NCBI GenBank assembly: GCA_023441125.1
Contig: JAEZQV010000335.1
Span: forward strand, 1 to 11,731
DNA: 11,731 nt
Origin: Bacillota bacterium
GTDB lineage: Bacteria > Bacillota_C > Negativicutes > Sporomusales > Sporomusaceae
Direction: 5' to 3'
In this document: positions 2,276 to 10,555 of the stretch, one piece after another
Numbering within the stretch: position 1 is the first letter of the stretch
How the letters are laid out: each line of letters opens with the position of its first letter
Position numbers and translations under genes: made by a program
Notes under the pieces: generated by a model
Databases searched by the model: none
Told to the model about the DNA's origin: nothing
Seen by the model: only the letters and a program-made list of their open reading frames with translations

Positions 2276-3166
2276 CTAATCAATCTTTTTTTCTTGTCCG
2301 GGTAGCTTATGATACTTCTTGGGGGATAGGCCATACATTTTTTTAAAGGCCCGGGCAAAGTTGGCATAATCATGAAAGCCGCTGTCCAGGCAAGCCGTTA
2401 ATACCGGTTGGCCGGCCCGGAGCAGGTGGTTGGCGGCAATCAGCCTTTTCTGCAGCACATACTGGTGAATGCTAAACCCGGTATGCTGCTTAAATTTGCG
2501 CATAAGATAATACTTGCTGAGAAAAAAGACGGCTGCCAGTTTTTCAATTGTTAAATCACCGGCCAGGTTGCTGTCAATGTAGGCAAGTATGTGATTGACG
2601 GTTTCATCATATTCTCTGTCGACAGCTGCGGCGGCAACTCCATTCTTCATCGCCAGGCTCATGCGGTTTACATAAATGATAAATTGGAGAAATAACGCAT
2701 TCCCTAGTAAATCGTCGGCAAAGTTCCGGTTTTGGCAGGTATGCTCAATTTGTGTCAGCAGCGCCTGCATAATGTCCCGCATTTCCGGTGTCATGCGCAA
2801 TACATTGAATTTGTGCCGGCAGCTGAACTCAAAGCAGGTTAATAAATTGGTGTTGGTGTCGCTGTTCTTTTCCAGGAAGGCGGGCTTCAGCCAGAGAACC
2901 ATCCGTTGGTAAGTGGCGGACGGATCAATCACCGGTTTATGAATGGTGTCCCGGCTGATCAGCAGAATATCCCAGGGTTTGAGCTTGTAAGCGGTTCCTT
3001 CAATGTAGTAAGTAACCTTACCGGCAATAAATACGACTACTTTGTTAAAATCATGGTAATGGGATTCGATATGTATTTCTTGCTTGTCCTGCAAGCTGAA
3101 AAAACTAAAGTCGCGGGTTAAATAGCCGCGTTTGTGATTGGGCGGTTCGGTAATGTTGTTCATCAT
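2276..3166 (-). CDS. AraC-family transcriptional regulator with N-terminal cupin domain
   Basis: Probable DNA-binding transcription activator sensing a small ligand. The N-terminal half has a cupin-like sensor, HYHDFNKVVVFIAGKVTYYIEG-type, at about residues 36-57, followed by PWDILLISRDTIHKP. The C-terminal ~100 residues hold the paired helix-turn-helix: first motif about 206-230 (LTIEKLAAVFFLSKYYLMRKF), second about 255-278, and the family signature GFHDYANFARAFKKMYGLSP. The length of 296 residues is normal. Two adjacent ATG codons (3166 and 3163) can start it. Neither has a recognisable Shine-Dalgarno sequence, and an AT-rich ATTATT (AATAAT on the coding strand, 3173-3178) lies almost against the start, so a very short or absent leader is possible. 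It is divergent from the GNAT-dapF-like pair with 121 nt between starts, which makes those genes candidate targets; the ligand is unknown. Confidence 0.9.
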   Translation of the reverse strand: MMNNITEPPNHKRGYLTRDFSFFSLQDKQEIHIESHYHDFNKVVVFIAGKVTYYIEGTAYKLKPWDILLISRDTIHKPVIDPSATYQRMVLWLKPAFLEKNSDTNTNLLTCFEFSCRHKFNVLRMTPEMRDIMQALLTQIEHTCQNRNFADDLLGNALFLQFIIYVNRMSLAMKNGVAAAAVDREYDETVNHILAYIDSNLAGDLTIEKLAAVFFLSKYYLMRKFKQHTGFSIHQYVLQKRLIAANHLLRAGQPVLTACLDSGFHDYANFARAFKKMYGLSPKKYHKLPGQEKKID

Positions 3167-3247: not shown

Positions 3248-3287
3248 GGCTGTAGATACTGCAAAACATGGTTAGGAGGAAATGCAA

Positions 3288-3725
3288 ATGCTGACCATAA
3301 CGCCGGTATGTGCCGCCGATCTGGAGGACCTTGCCGTCCTTTATGAGGAACTCACCGGCCATAAGACCAACCGTTTGAATATGGCCAGGATATTTGACCA
3401 GATTGCCGGCAATACAAATTACCTGCTAATCGGCGCCAGAGACCGAAAGCAGCGCCTGGTGGGCTCGCTGCTGGGAATCCTGTGTCTGGACATTGTCGGC
3501 GAGTGCCGGCCGTTTCTGGTGCTGGAAAATGTTATAGTGAGTGAGAAATGCCGCCGGCAGGGTATCGGAAGAAAGCTAATCGGCTACATTGAAAACTGGG
3601 CGCGTGAGCATAACTGCTATTATATCATGCTGGTATCTTTGAGCAGGCGCAAGCAGGCCCATGATTTTTATGCCCGGCTGGATTATAAACCGGGTGTAGT
3701 GCAGGGGTATAAAAAATATCTGTAA
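3288..3725 (+). CDS. GNAT-family N-acetyltransferase
   Basis: Predicted acetyl-CoA-dependent acyltransferase of 145 residues, about the minimal size of a single GNAT domain. The acetyl-CoA pyrophosphate-binding motif A is clear: strand LENVIVSEK, then RRQGIGRKLI (residues 89-98), matching the R/Q-x-x-G-x-G/A loop. The late QAHDFYARLDYKP (about 123-135) is the typical C-terminal GNAT element. The acceptor amine is unknown. I place the start at the ATG at 3288: AGGAGGA (3274-3280) lies 7 nt before it, but only 1 nt before the alternative ATG at 3282. The dapF-like gene follows after 31 nt with no terminator, so they are probably co-transcribed. This pairing suggests an amino-acid-like substrate, which is inference. 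Confidence 0.85.
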   Translation: MLTITPVCAADLEDLAVLYEELTGHKTNRLNMARIFDQIAGNTNYLLIGARDRKQRLVGSLLGILCLDIVGECRPFLVLENVIVSEKCRRQGIGRKLIGYIENWAREHNCYYIMLVSLSRRKQAHDFYARLDYKPGVVQGYKKYL

Positions 3726-3756: not shown

Positions 3757-4611
3757 GTGGAATACCATTTTTACAAGTATCATGCGCTCGGCAATGATTA
3801 CATTGTCATTGACCCGAATAAGACCCGCATTACCTTGTCGGCGGAAAACATCCGATTGATTTGCCACCGGAATTTCGGGATCGGCTCAGATGGCATTCTC
3901 TTCGGACCGTTGCTGCAGGCTAATGCCACCGGCCTCAGGATATTCAATCCGGACGGGAGCGAAGCCGAAAAAAGCGGCAACGGAATTCGGATTTTTTCCC
4001 GCTATCTGGCAGATGCCGGCTATATAACCAGCAGGGCGTTTCGTTTGGCAACCTTGGGCGGGGAGGTTAACGTAGAACTCCTGGACAGCAAAGGCCGGCA
4101 AATTCGGGTGGACATGGGGACGGTTACTTTCCAAAGTCAGGAAATCCCGGTAGCCGGTCCGGCCCGGGAAGTAATCCGGGAGGAATTAATGATTCAGAAC
4201 CACCGGCTGAGCGTTTCCTGTCTGTCCATTGGCAATCCGCACTGCGTTGTGCTTTGTGACGAGCTTTCCCGGGACACCACCGTTGACCTGGGGCCGGCTA
4301 TTGAGACCCATGCCCTGTTTCCCAGGCGGATCAATGTACAGTTTCTGAAAATCATAGACCGGGGCAACATCCGGATTGAAATTTGGGAACGGGGCGCAGG
4401 CTACACACTGGCTTCAGGCAGCAGCAGCTGTGCGGCGGCCAGCGCTGCTCACAAGCTGGGGCTGGTCGACAATACGGTCAACGTCCATATGCCGGGAGGG
4501 ACAATCCGGATAGACCTTCTGCCATCAGGCCGGGTCCTGATGACAGGTCCGGTAACTCAGGTGGCCGCAGGTTTCTTGGGTGAAGATTTATGGGCGCAGG
4601 TTGCTGAATAG
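3757..4611 (+). CDS. Diaminopimelate epimerase homologue lacking both catalytic cysteines (Ser73/Ser220)
   Basis: DapF-fold protein of 284 residues, close to the usual length. True DapF interconverts LL- and meso-diaminopimelate without cofactor, using two cysteines (73 and 217) as acid/base pair. Here the fold and substrate-contact motifs are retained: HALGNDY (residues 9-15), FGIGSDG (40-46), FNPDGSEAEKSGNGIR (63-78), SIGNPHCVV (157-165), RRINVQFL (190-197) and ERGAGYTLASGSSSCAAA (211-228). The first catalytic cysteine is Ser73 (AGC) and the second is Ser220 (TCA); the Glu that normally precedes TLACG is Tyr216. Cys225 matches a non-catalytic position. Thus meso-DAP epimerase activity is doubtful; a changed racemase/isomerase chemistry or a binding role are alternatives. 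The GTG start is fixed by AGAGGAGG at 3741-3748, 8 nt upstream. It follows the GNAT gene by 31 nt; 172 nt with no clear terminator separate it from marR. The symbol dapF is deliberately not assigned. Confidence 0.9.
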   Translation: MEYHFYKYHALGNDYIVIDPNKTRITLSAENIRLICHRNFGIGSDGILFGPLLQANATGLRIFNPDGSEAEKSGNGIRIFSRYLADAGYITSRAFRLATLGGEVNVELLDSKGRQIRVDMGTVTFQSQEIPVAGPAREVIREELMIQNHRLSVSCLSIGNPHCVVLCDELSRDTTVDLGPAIETHALFPRRINVQFLKIIDRGNIRIEIWERGAGYTLASGSSSCAAASAAHKLGLVDNTVNVHMPGGTIRIDLLPSGRVLMTGPVTQVAAGFLGEDLWAQVAE

Positions 4612-5221: not shown

Positions 5222-5253
5222 ATTAAATTGCACAAGAAATGTCAGGGGATTTT

Positions 5254-6447
5254 ATGCAGAAACAATCGTTGTGGACGCAGGCTTTTCTGGGGATGAGCCT
5301 GAGTAGTTTTTTTCAGTATATGACGCACTATGCCTTCATTGCCGTGTTGCCGGTTTTTGTTATAGAACAGCTGCAGGGGAATAACTGGCAGGCAGGGCTG
5401 GCAATGACGTTCTTTCAGATCGGCGCCGTGCTCTGCCGTCCGCTGGCAGGTAAATGGATCGACGAATTTGCTCCCAGGAAAATGTTATTTGTCGCGTTAG
5501 GCCTTTTTTTATTGGTCAGTGTAATGTACTTAGGCGCTGACAGCCTGTACTTTTTGTTGCTGCTACGTTTACTCCATGGGGTCGTGTTTGCATTAGGCAC
5601 TACCCTGGTGGCCGCGTTGGCCGCACTGGCTTTGCCGCCGCCGCGCAGGGGCGAGGGAATTGGTTATTTTGCCTTGTTTTCCAATTTGGCGATGGTCATC
5701 GGGCCGTTTTGCGGGTTAACCGTCATTGCGCATTATTCGTTTACTGTATTGTTCGCCGGGTGTATCGTGCTGGCGATATTCGCCTTCTGCTGCGGCAATA
5801 TAAGCAAAATACCGGCGATTGCCGGCCAGGCGGCAGCCAGGCCGGACAGACGCTCTTTGGATTGGAGTAATTTTATCGAACCCGGCGCCTTGACCATGGC
5901 TTTAGTTGGTGGCCTGTTATTTTTTGCCTACACCGGCGTGCTGGTGTTTATTCCTTTATACGCGAAAGAACTTAGGCTGGCAGAATATACCAGTGCCTTT
6001 TTCGCCGTATTTGCTGTATGGATTGTGGCGACCAGGCCGTTTGTGGGCAGACTGTTTGATCACGCGGGCGCCAATGCCGTCGTTTATCCGGGTTTTATTG
6101 TGTTCTTGCTCGGTTTGCTTGGGCTAACCCAGGTGCAGGGACTTGCCGGATTTTTAGCGGCAGGCAGTGTCCTCGGGATTGGTTTTGGCGCGCTCAGTCC
6201 TGTGTTTCAGACCCTGGCGATACAGCTGGCACCCGCGCGCCGGGCCGGTGTGGCCACCGCCACATATTTTTTAGCTTTGGATATCAGTGTGGGACTTGGC
6301 TCTTTTTTTCTTAGTGTAGTGGCCGCCCATGTCGGCTATCGCGACATGTATCTGTTTGCCGCGGCAGTGACTGTTCTTACCGCCGGCGTGTACTATCGCC
6401 TGACAGCCAAAAGCTATACCGCTAAATTAGCTGAACAGGGTGAATAA
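5254..6447 (+). CDS. MFS transporter (drug/metabolite efflux type)
   Basis: Inner-membrane proton-linked exporter of the major facilitator superfamily, 397 residues with hydrophobic segments consistent with 12 transmembrane helices. The loop 2-3 motif A appears as GKWIDEFAPRKM (residues 66-77) and is echoed in the second half as GRLFDHAGA (from 265), the pseudo-twofold repeat of this fold. A basic loop (about 190-205, rich in Arg/Asp) separates the two halves. The substrate cannot be read from the sequence; the COG2814 (AraJ-like) class is the best guess. I prefer ATG 5254 because AGGGGA (5242-5247) precedes it, while ATG 5239 has no Shine-Dalgarno sequence. It is co-transcribed with the MarR gene, and a strong terminator follows. 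Export of an antimicrobial or a self-made small molecule are both possible. Confidence 0.9.
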   Translation: MQKQSLWTQAFLGMSLSSFFQYMTHYAFIAVLPVFVIEQLQGNNWQAGLAMTFFQIGAVLCRPLAGKWIDEFAPRKMLFVALGLFLLVSVMYLGADSLYFLLLLRLLHGVVFALGTTLVAALAALALPPPRRGEGIGYFALFSNLAMVIGPFCGLTVIAHYSFTVLFAGCIVLAIFAFCCGNISKIPAIAGQAAARPDRRSLDWSNFIEPGALTMALVGGLLFFAYTGVLVFIPLYAKELRLAEYTSAFFAVFAVWIVATRPFVGRLFDHAGANAVVYPGFIVFLLGLLGLTQVQGLAGFLAAGSVLGIGFGALSPVFQTLAIQLAPARRAGVATATYFLALDISVGLGSFFLSVVAAHVGYRDMYLFAAAVTVLTAGVYYRLTAKSYTAKLAEQGE

Positions 6448-7691: not shown

Positions 7692-7939
7692 AGTTTTCCT
7701 CCTTAGATGCATTATGACCCGTTACTACGTTGGATTTTCTGTTAAGAAAATAATTCCTTAGCCCAGTTTACAGCAGGATGACGCAAAAAAGCAACCGGTA
7801 ATTTGAGATGTTAACTGATGTTTCTCTGTCATAGACAATCTGAACGGGGCTATTTTGTAAAAAATAACTGGCGCTAAGGCAATAAGTGTGTTATTCTGTA
7901 ACGATATTTACCTTAACTACATGTATTGGAGGGCGTTTT

Positions 7940-8806
7940 ATGGAGGTCACTCATTATATGAATATAGCGATAGAAGAGGCTAAGCTGAGCTTGCGTGAGG
8001 GCAATCATGGTTTTGGGGCGGTTCTTATCAAGGATGGGCAAATCATTGCTGCTGAGCATGACCGGGAAGAAACAGCAGGGGATCCAACCGCGCATGCTGA
8101 ACTTAATGCAATAAAAGCGGCTGTCCGGAAATTGGGCAAAGACCTTGCCGGCTGTGTGTTAATAACTACGCATGAGCCCTGCCCGATGTGTGCCGGCGCA
8201 ATTGTCTGGGCAAACATTTCCGGACTTGCGTTTGGCTGTTCCATTAAAGACGCCAGGTCGCAGGGACGCAGGCGCATCGATTTAACCTGTGAAGATGTAT
8301 TCAACAAAGCCAATTGCAATATCAATATACAGGCCGGTATCCTGCAGCAAGCCTGTTCTGTTTTATACCGGCAGGATGTAAGAAGCGAAATCGAGAAATT
8401 GCGTACAGCAGATGCCGGTAAGCTTGCGGAACTGAACGCCGATTCAGTAGCCAAGCGGGTGGCCTGGTTCCGGGAAAACCGGGATCGATTCCAGTTTATC
8501 AGTGACGACTTGTTAGAGTCCGGTTACCGACTTTTATTGACGCGGTTTGGCATTACCGCGGAGCAGGCGCCCATTATTAGCAAGTCGGCAAAGGAAATTA
8601 TCTTTCATTCCCAAAACTTTTGTCCCACGCTGGAGGCCTGCAAAATTTTAGAGATGGATACAAGCTATGTATGCCGCAGACTGAATGAAGATGCAACCGA
8701 TGCATTATTGAAACAGCTTAGCCCGAAACTCAGGTTTACAAGAAATTACGCCAAACTGAGGCCCTATACGGACTACTGCGAAGAAATGATCAGCATCCGG
8801 GAGTAA
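7940..8806 (+). CDS. Zinc nucleoside/nucleobase deaminase with extra C-terminal domain
   Basis: The N-terminal ~150 residues are a cytidine/deoxycytidylate deaminase fold: NHGFGAVLIKDGQII, TAHAELNAI (zinc ligand His52, proton shuttle Glu54) and HEPCPMCAGAI (zinc ligands Cys81 and Cys84). This arrangement matches guanine deaminase/TadA/CMP-deaminase type enzymes; the base or nucleoside deaminated is not decided. Stand-alone enzymes of this class are about 150-160 residues, but this protein has 288. The added ~120 residues (about 165-288) begin with a charged helical stretch and contain FCPTLEAC (Cys228, Cys234), YVC (Cys245) and DYCEE (Cys280); I do not recognise the domain. It may bind metal or substrate, which is inference. 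TGGAGGG at 7927-7933 sets the ATG at 7940 as the start, not the longer frame from 7886. It is probably monocistronic; a tetR promoter follows. Confidence 0.85.
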   Translation: MEVTHYMNIAIEEAKLSLREGNHGFGAVLIKDGQIIAAEHDREETAGDPTAHAELNAIKAAVRKLGKDLAGCVLITTHEPCPMCAGAIVWANISGLAFGCSIKDARSQGRRRIDLTCEDVFNKANCNINIQAGILQQACSVLYRQDVRSEIEKLRTADAGKLAELNADSVAKRVAWFRENRDRFQFISDDLLESGYRLLLTRFGITAEQAPIISKSAKEIIFHSQNFCPTLEACKILEMDTSYVCRRLNEDATDALLKQLSPKLRFTRNYAKLRPYTDYCEEMISIRE

Positions 8807-9595: not shown

Positions 9596-9640
9596 CCCAT
9601 AAACTTCTCTCGGTAAATTAATTGAAAGGGAGCGATGTTC

Positions 9641-10555
9641 ATGCAGAAAAATTCCGATGGTGAAACTACGCAAGCCTGTCTAACGGCTGACAGCGAAATG
9701 AGTCAGGCGATAATCAGGGAGATTTGCCGCTTTGTCCAGGAAAGTCCGGCTAATTGCTTTCCCGATGAAGACAGGCCCTTTTTCGCGGAACCGCTGGTTG
9801 GTTTCGCCAGTGCGACTGATCCGTTATTCACCCAATACAAAACCATCATCGGCGACTTTCATCTGACGCCGCAGGAATTACTGGCCCAATCGGACGGCGG
9901 GGCGACCTGGCAGCCTGCTACCGTAATTAGCTGGGTGCTGCCGGTTACGCTTGCTACCAGGCTGACCAATCGTGAGGAAAGCACCTATCCCTCCAAGGCC
10001 TGGGGCCAGACCAGAGGTTTCGGTGAAAAGTTCAATGCCGCTCTAAGAACCCATATTGTCGAATATCTGCGCGGCCTGGGCTGCCAGGCTGCCGCACCGC
10101 AACTGCTGTCTGCCTGGCAAAGGTTTACCGAGACGCCCGTCGGCATAGCCTCGTCGTGGTCTGAACGACATGCTGCCTATGCTGCCGGTTTGGGTACCTT
10201 TAGCCTGAATGATGCGCTGATTACCCCCAAAGGCATTGCCCACCGGCTGGGCAGTGTGATCACCGATTTAGTGCTTACGCCCTCACCGCGGCTTTACCCC
10301 GGTCTCCGCTCGAACTGTCTTTATTTCCGGGAGGAAAGCTGCGGGTTATGCATAGAACGTTGTCCGGTCGGCGCCTTGTCTGTCGACGGGCATGATAAAA
10401 ACAAATGCTGCCAGCATGTCTACGGCACGGTCCTGGCGGCTGTAGGCGAGTCTTACGGCGTTGCGGAAGCCGGGTGCGGCCTTTGTCAAACCAAAGTCCC
10501 GTGCGAAGGGCGGATTCCCGCCGGCCGTACACCCTATTCGCCCTGTGGCCGGTAG
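9641..10555 (+). CDS. QueG-like 4Fe-4S protein (epoxyqueuosine-reductase-related, atypical cysteine pattern)
   Basis: Predicted cytoplasmic iron-sulfur oxidoreductase of 304 residues. The middle region, ERHAAYAAGLGTFSLNDALIT (about 175-195) followed by HRLGSVITDL, corresponds to the 'ER..A..AGLG..GKN.LL......LGE...D' stretch of QueG and related cobalamin-dependent reductases. A ferredoxin-like part follows: Cys226-x7-Cys234-x2-Cys237-x3-Cys241-Pro, Cys256/Cys257, then Cys279-x2-Cys282-x5-Cys288. QueG has two [4Fe-4S] clusters with CxxCxxCxxxCP and CxxCxxxCP; here the first loses its middle cysteine and gains one upstream, and the second has wider spacing. The C-terminal HEAT-type extension of long QueG proteins is absent. 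Activity on tRNA epoxyqueuosine is therefore unproven, and reduction of another substrate is plausible. GGGAG (9628-9632) favours ATG 9641 (8 nt) over ATG 9635 (2 nt). It is preceded by a TetR box and followed after 47 nt by a Crp/Fnr gene. Confidence 0.8.
   Translation: MQKNSDGETTQACLTADSEMSQAIIREICRFVQESPANCFPDEDRPFFAEPLVGFASATDPLFTQYKTIIGDFHLTPQELLAQSDGGATWQPATVISWVLPVTLATRLTNREESTYPSKAWGQTRGFGEKFNAALRTHIVEYLRGLGCQAAAPQLLSAWQRFTETPVGIASSWSERHAAYAAGLGTFSLNDALITPKGIAHRLGSVITDLVLTPSPRLYPGLRSNCLYFREESCGLCIERCPVGALSVDGHDKNKCCQHVYGTVLAAVGESYGVAEAGCGLCQTKVPCEGRIPAGRTPYSPCGR

Follow-up and report, generated by a model that had tools for sequence, protein, structure and literature searches.

A clade of DapF-like proteins with serine at both catalytic cysteine positions: probable thiol-free diaminopimelate epimerases

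DapF serves as the textbook example of how a pair of thiols can abstract a proton of very low acidity, and its cysteines are the point of attack that makes it an antibacterial target. The window, the whole stretch of 11,731 nucleotides analysed here, carries a gene for a DapF-like protein with serine at both cysteine positions. This raises the question whether a diaminopimelate (DAP) epimerase can work without thiols, or whether such a protein has taken on another task. An earlier note on this DNA had left three options: that the chemistry differs, that the substrate has a more acidic alpha carbon, or that the protein has become a binding or isomerase-like one.

The gene, its product and its surroundings

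The gene (3757–4611, plus strand) was recognised by reading of the open reading frame (ORF), by profile and by structural model. It encodes 284 aa from a GTG start codon, with a GAGGAGG stretch 8 bases 5' of this start. Reading of the ORF confirmed that serine has replaced both catalytic cysteines: Ser73 (codon AGC, 3973–3975) lies in the motif EKSGNGIR and Ser220 (TCA, 4414–4416) in GYTLASGSSSC. Lys72 (AAA, 3970–3972) and Ser223 (AGC, 4423–4425) lie close to the two serines, and Cys163 (4243–4245) is part of the motif GNPHC; all these codons are on the plus strand. The substrate-contact motifs (asparagines, Glu-Arg and GNPH) remain, as the earlier note had it. The DAP contacts described for Anabaena DapF are Asn13, 66, 164 and 197, Glu215 and Arg216 (PMC12039745); equated by motif, the window protein has Asn13, Asn64, Asn160 (of GNPH), Asn193, Glu211 and Arg212, and the same six residues are found in all 121 Ser/Ser proteins aligned below.

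The window protein scored 245.5 bits on the DapF profile TIGR00652, well over the cut-off of 114.65. PF01678 was its sole Pfam match (188.3, cut-off 34.7), so that Pfam gave no sequence membership of the proline racemase superfamily. When the PDB was searched by sequence, DapF chains ranked best (phmmer; 9mro, E 3.7e-57), and neither CntK nor HisR nor PddB was among the 17 phmmer PDB matches. An AlphaFold model of the protein (mean pLDDT 95.1) had the two-domain DapF fold, with a cyanobacterial DapF as best PDB match (9mro_A, TM 0.89). The 26 best PDB chains by fold were all DapF or O-ureidoserine racemase. CntK had 16% identity to the window protein by fold comparison, and 4HypE chains resembled the model by fold alone (TM 0.67–0.73). 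The model helices 74–86 and 221–233 start directly after Ser73 and Ser220, respectively, a predicted placement that matches the helix ends at which the catalytic cysteines of DapF have been described (PMC12039745).

The PROSITE signature of DapF, as quoted in PMC8225329, contains a C in its active-site motif. In the window protein Ser73 and Ser220 take the place of the thiolate/thiol pair, and because this defining pair is missing we name the protein, judging by its sequence, a member of a Ser/Ser DapF-like clade and not a thiol DapF. Automatic annotation names all Ser/Ser proteins plain diaminopimelate epimerase, which masks the difference.

A gene for a GNAT acetyltransferase (3282–3725, plus strand) lies 31 bases upstream of the Ser/Ser gene on the same strand, and is preceded by the divergent gene of an AraC-type regulator (2276–3166, minus strand), giving the order AraC gene, GNAT gene, Ser/Ser gene. 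A GNAT gene also adjoins the Ser/Ser gene in two other loci, L258 and L262; it is located upstream in the window and L258, and downstream and overlapping in L262. Of the 18 Ser-bearing genomes of the window's class (the class of G007, see below), 9 have an AraC homologue divergently adjoining the Ser/Ser gene, and the same arrangement occurs in 4 further Firmicutes loci (L015, L030, L050 and L079). In the loci of this class, no lysine or DAP pathway gene was recognised beside the Ser/Ser gene.

Two other contexts were considered and rejected. A staphylopine-like cluster, in which the protein would be an analogue of CntK, did not fit: the MFS gene at 5239–6447 scored 60.6 bits on the CntE model (cut-off 235), and the scanned ORFs of the window included no opine synthase gene. 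A place in a defence system was likewise not indicated, as the Ser/Ser protein had no match in PADLOC. Elsewhere in the window, a 306-aa protein without a Pfam match (9635–10555, plus strand) has a Cys-rich stretch (CGLCIERCPVGAL) resembling a 4Fe-4S site, and a TadA-like deaminase (7886–8806, plus strand) has a long C-terminal extension and scored 72 bits against the TadA cut-off of 150.

Conservation of the two serines

Lys-Ser and Ser-Gly-x-Ser were present at the two sites in all of the best 120 of 7,999 scored homologues (a stricter motif pattern missed the second site in 3 of these 120). Among the matches listed, the nearest named sources were Sporomusa (76–77%), Methylomusa, Lucifera and Pelosinus. 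All 64 DapF ORFs kept from the best 80 related loci, drawn from data with one genome per species, were Ser/Ser. With the protein of the cyanobacterium Gloeomargarita as query, the first site was Ser in 119 of 119 readable proteins of the 120 listed, and the second in all 120. Because similarity decided the ranking, these lists show how common Ser/Ser is but do not give the frequency of exceptions.

We aligned 206 distinct DapF proteins from the loci, of which 121 were Ser/Ser, 84 Cys/Cys and 1 Ser/Cys. In a tree of 93 of these proteins (catalytic columns masked, quick method, midpoint root), 55 Ser/Ser rows and the Ser/Cys row were split off together by a branch with a length of 0.98 and an SH-aLRT of 100. 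By this tree the Ser/Ser proteins are one deep clade, as the earlier note had wanted checked, and the idea of a lone oddity of one genome was discarded. Named loci of the clade stand under 13 phylum labels, mostly as metagenome-assembled genomes. Conservation of the pair across so deep a clade upholds the view that selection, not decay, maintains it.

To the features already described, the alignment adds that Ser73 is preceded by Lys, where Met is usual, and that Ser223 stands where Cys/Cys proteins have Gly. Lys72 was found in 118 of the 121 Ser/Ser proteins, against Met in 75 of the 84 Cys/Cys proteins; Ser223 was likewise found in 118 of 121, against Gly in 84 of 84. Cys163 is invariant in Ser/Ser proteins (121/121) and present in 18 of the 84 Cys/Cys proteins. 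Tyr216 (117/121) was absent among the residues listed for Cys/Cys, and Tyr8 and Tyr15, each in at least 97% of Ser/Ser proteins, are rare or absent at the same places in Cys/Cys. A Gly-Pro insertion at 50–51 also marks the Ser/Ser rows. Asn160 is present in 121 of 121 Ser/Ser proteins, and 43 of the 84 Cys/Cys proteins have Val there.

Three Lachnospiraceae proteins (L050, L065 and L079) were the only Ser/Ser rows without Lys72, and the same three are without Ser223; their motifs read EMSGNG or ERSGNG, and ASGTG. These proteins may be drifting or may have another role.

The single Ser/Cys protein (L176, from G136) has Ser73 and Cys220, kept Lys72, carries Ala223 and is the sole DapF of its genome. 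Because it sits inside the Ser/Ser clade, Cys appears to have been regained once at position 220, which on its sequence makes L176 a natural partial reversal. Ala223 beside Cys220 in this single case is consistent with Ser223 being the partner of Ser220.

Distribution of the two forms and the need for meso-DAP

The motifs were read in all 24 genomes that had yielded Ser/Ser loci: 12 also had a Cys/Cys DapF and 12 had Ser/Ser only. Four classes, named here by their centre genomes, were then surveyed using genomes at least 95% complete. Among the 57 genomes of the class of G016 (Opitutia), 16 had Ser/Ser only, 40 Cys/Cys only, none had both and 1 gave no match; DapF was read in all 56 genomes with a match. 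The class of G013 (a deltaproteobacterium, n = 59) comprised 8 genomes with Ser/Ser only, 1 with Ser/Cys only, 1 with both types (G130), 48 with the Cys type (47 proteins read, one a fragment) and 1 without a match. For the class of G008 (cyanobacteria, n = 78) these numbers were 4 with Ser/Ser only, 1 with both, 70 with the Cys type (assigned by identity, 12 of them read) and 3 without a match. In these three classes Ser/Ser and Cys/Cys nearly exclude each other, with Fisher p values of 2.9e-13, 7.8e-9 and 1.2e-4, respectively, which overstate the exclusion because related species were treated as independent. The DapF profile found a single DapF in 30 of the 31 Ser-bearing survey genomes, G025 included.

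In the window's own class, that of G007 (Anaerospora; Negativicutes; n = 60), Ser/Ser is an additional copy. Both forms were present in 18 genomes, 41 had the Cys type (assigned by identity, 12 read) and 1 gave no match; the second copy was read as Cys/Cys in all 18.

Two side observations were made during the surveys. The Cys/Cys DapF proteins carry GVPH in 40 of 40 read in the class of G016 (L127–L166) and in 27 of 29 read in the class of G013 (L301–L329), and a long branch separates this GVPH type from the remaining Cys/Cys DapF. One Ruminiclostridium genome (G009; L018, L032 and L089) has two Ser/Ser proteins and one Cys/Cys DapF, with both Ser/Ser genes behind lysA-type genes.

Genomes without another dapF, one half of the refuting case set out in the earlier note, were thus found among relatives; their gene content and gene neighbourhoods would fit epimerase activity there. 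Pathway genes were checked in 36 Ser-only genomes (35 Ser/Ser, 1 Ser/Cys). MurE was over cut-off in 34 of them, and DNPR, which we take to be the mark of meso-DAP ligases, was present in 29 of the 30 MurE loci read. Ddh, which bypasses DapF, was over cut-off in 2 of the 36 (G050 and G081); no Ddh over cut-off was found in the other 34 or in the 4 cyanobacterial genomes. DapL, the product of which is LL-DAP (PMC4176475), was over cut-off in 23 of the 36, and 13 had none over cut-off. In 20 Ser/Ser-only genomes dapL and murE occurred without a Ddh over cut-off, and these should therefore need epimerisation of LL- to meso-DAP. Another set of 24 genomes, which overlaps the first in part, had dapB over cut-off in 19 cases and lysA in 16. 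GapMind's DapX was looked at as a possible DAP epimerase and turned out to be an aminotransferase.

Ser/Ser-only genomes that consist of a single contig include G013, G025, G118 and G236. The last is Gloeomargarita lithophora Alchichica-D10, which has one DapF, of the Ser/Ser type, and no Ddh match. As a photoautotroph, this cyanobacterium would be expected to synthesise both lysine and its cell wall by itself. Genomes with the Ser/Ser form only make the question directly testable.

Neighbours were read by eye in 66 of the 80 loci, and all 80 were probed with LysA, DapL and AraC sequences (one neighbour reading of 73 loci gave no neighbours in 14). The earlier note had asked for conserved neighbours, and these were found in part. 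Besides the AraC gene in half of the Ser-bearing genomes of the window's class, pathway genes confirmed with NCBIfam lie beside the Ser/Ser gene in six loci from five lineages; most of the 80 loci have no lysine or DAP pathway neighbour. The six are dapF-dapA-dapB (L057), lysC-dapB-dapA-dapF with a split dapA (L045), dapB-dapF followed by a DapL/DapC-like aminotransferase that scored under its curated cut-offs (L016), lysA-dapF-dapL in two loci of one genome (L018, with dapL split, and L032, with dapL cut by the contig end) and lysA-dapF (L012).

Interpretation and comparison with known systems

In our judgement the Ser/Ser proteins are probably an ancient clade of the DapF fold that epimerises LL-DAP to meso-DAP without thiols. 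The roles of base and acid would pass from the cysteines to Ser73 and Ser220, both of which would face the alpha carbon from the N-terminal end of a helix, and the substrate would be bound as in DapF through Asn13, Asn64, Asn160, Asn193, Glu211 and Arg212. A probable role of Lys72, directly before Ser73, and of Ser223, three residues beyond Ser220, is to orient or activate the serines; the three Lachnospiraceae proteins without both residues speak against this reading. Of the three options in the earlier note, different chemistry with the old substrate is favoured, because Ser/Ser is the sole DapF in many genomes that look equipped to make meso-DAP, because in three of the four surveyed classes a genome with one form generally lacks the other, and because some Ser/Ser genes lie in runs of dap and lys genes. 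For the window protein a changed role is possible as well, since its Ser/Ser kin also hold a Cys/Cys DapF (18/18).

Many lineages would have the Ser/Ser protein as their only DapF, whereas Sporomusa-type Firmicutes would have it as a second DapF, encoded beside an AraC regulator gene. The window probably carries such a second copy, plausibly an epimerase that is used under particular conditions and withstands oxidation and thiol poisons. DapF of Corynebacterium glutamicum is described as having a disulfide switch (PMC5296763); a thiol-free DapF would escape a switch of this type, and it is our guess that this escape is why the Ser/Ser form is retained. If the Ser/Ser enzyme does the job of DapF, a thiol is not needed for it, a familiar active site would be at hand for studying how serine achieves catalysis, and thiol-directed DapF inhibitors would miss the organisms concerned. 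The full-text literature searched, with subscription journals mostly outside it, gave no description of a natural Ser/Ser DapF.

The first alternative concerns Firmicutes such as the source of the window. There, meso-DAP would be made by the Cys/Cys copy, and the Ser/Ser paralogue would have taken on a changed job: it might act on a different substrate, serve D-amino-acid metabolism under certain conditions or bind a ligand. It would be controlled by the adjacent AraC regulator and might be linked in function to the GNAT acetyltransferase. The window copy need not perform the DapF reaction, because all 18 Ser-bearing genomes of its class also have a Cys/Cys DapF; the AraC homologue in 9 of these 18, the adjoining GNAT gene in the window and in L258 and L262, and the drift of the Lachnospiraceae members at Lys72 and Ser223 point the same way. 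However, the DAP contacts are all kept, the 27-row subclade of the window includes sole DapFs (L002 of G002, L004 of G003, L006 of G004 and L075 of G023), and L018 has its Ser/Ser gene between lysA and dapL although its genome has both forms. We regard a changed job as conceivable but rather unlikely.

Alternatively, the protein is a DAP epimerase whose base is a residue other than serine, with Lys72, Cys163 beside His162 or one of the clade-specific tyrosines (8, 15 or 216) taking part. The near-invariance of these residues in Ser/Ser proteins fits such a role, as does the rarity or absence of Lys72 and the tyrosines in Cys/Cys proteins, Cys163 excepted. Cys163, however, occurs in normal Cys/Cys DapF too, and both serines are present in 121 of 121 Ser/Ser proteins, located where the thiols sit. 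L176 regained Cys only at position 220, which suggests that this site is still catalytic, and we think a different base unlikely.

The pKa of serine is far above that of cysteine. Engineered Cys-to-Ser variants of PddB and, as reported in the same paper, of Mycobacterium tuberculosis DapF had less than 0.1% activity (PMC8225329), and that of HisR Cys-to-Ser mutants was greatly reduced (PMC11602996). Because such engineered enzymes are nearly dead, either something in the natural Ser/Ser form compensates for the loss, or the favoured reading is wrong. Also weighing against that reading are the one genome with both forms in each of the classes of G013 and G008, the two Ser-only genomes with Ddh, the 13 of 36 lacking a dapL over cut-off, and the incomplete detection of lysA (16) and dapB (19) in 24 genomes. 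The mutants are also one ground for supposing that Ser/Ser proteins are inactive as epimerases everywhere, a non-homologous enzyme making meso-DAP in Ser-only genomes, such as DapF2, proposed in genomes lacking dapF (PMC9026213), or Ddh, over cut-off in two Ser-only genomes. This leaves the mutual exclusion of Ser/Ser and Cys/Cys, the dap/lys neighbourhoods and the invariant substrate contacts unexplained, and a Ddh over cut-off was missing from 34 of the 36 Ser-only genomes tested and from all 4 cyanobacterial ones; we consider general inactivity improbable. Sequencing error or a pseudogene, already thought a poor explanation in the earlier note, can practically be dismissed in view of the open 284-aa frame, the two different types of Ser codon (one of which is separated from Cys by two base changes) and the conservation of the same residues in the best 120 homologues and in closed genomes.

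Compared with thiol DapF (EC 5.1.1.7, TIGR00652), the window protein shares the fold, the profile score, the substrate contacts and, in some relatives, the gene neighbours. Its clade differs in the replacement of both catalytic cysteines by serine, and is further marked by Lys72, Ser223, Cys163, Tyr8, Tyr15, Tyr216 and the Gly50-Pro51 insertion. DcsC, which presumably has a Cys pair, has the same fold (E 3.1e-35 by sequence, TM 0.87 by model), and the window protein matches DapF chains better. CntK, HisR and PddB, described with Cys pairs (PMC8225329, PMC11602996), share the fold with DcsC and the window protein and, like DcsC, act on other substrates. Chlamydia DapF has Val145 at the Asn site of GNPH (PMC5885031), and the Cys/Cys rivals with GVPH in the class of G016 resemble it; this type differs from the Ser/Ser proteins, which have GNPH, in having kept its cysteines. 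DapF2, a PLP-dependent Alr-like epimerase predicted from genome context in staphylococci, is likewise a proposed DapF substitute where DapF is lacking, but is unrelated to the Ser/Ser proteins in fold and cofactor.

Natural catalytic serines are described in the proline racemase superfamily, in a Ser/Cys 4-hydroxyproline 2-epimerase and a Ser/Thr trans-3-hydroxyproline dehydratase, where an Asn three positions further along holds the Ser (PMC4113996). That superfamily is another branch with another substrate, and has at most one Ser, opposite Cys or Thr, and never two. It shows that a natural Ser can work in place of a catalytic Cys, and its Ser-Asn spacing is that of Ser220 and Ser223, a resemblance which is not in itself a test of the role of Ser223.
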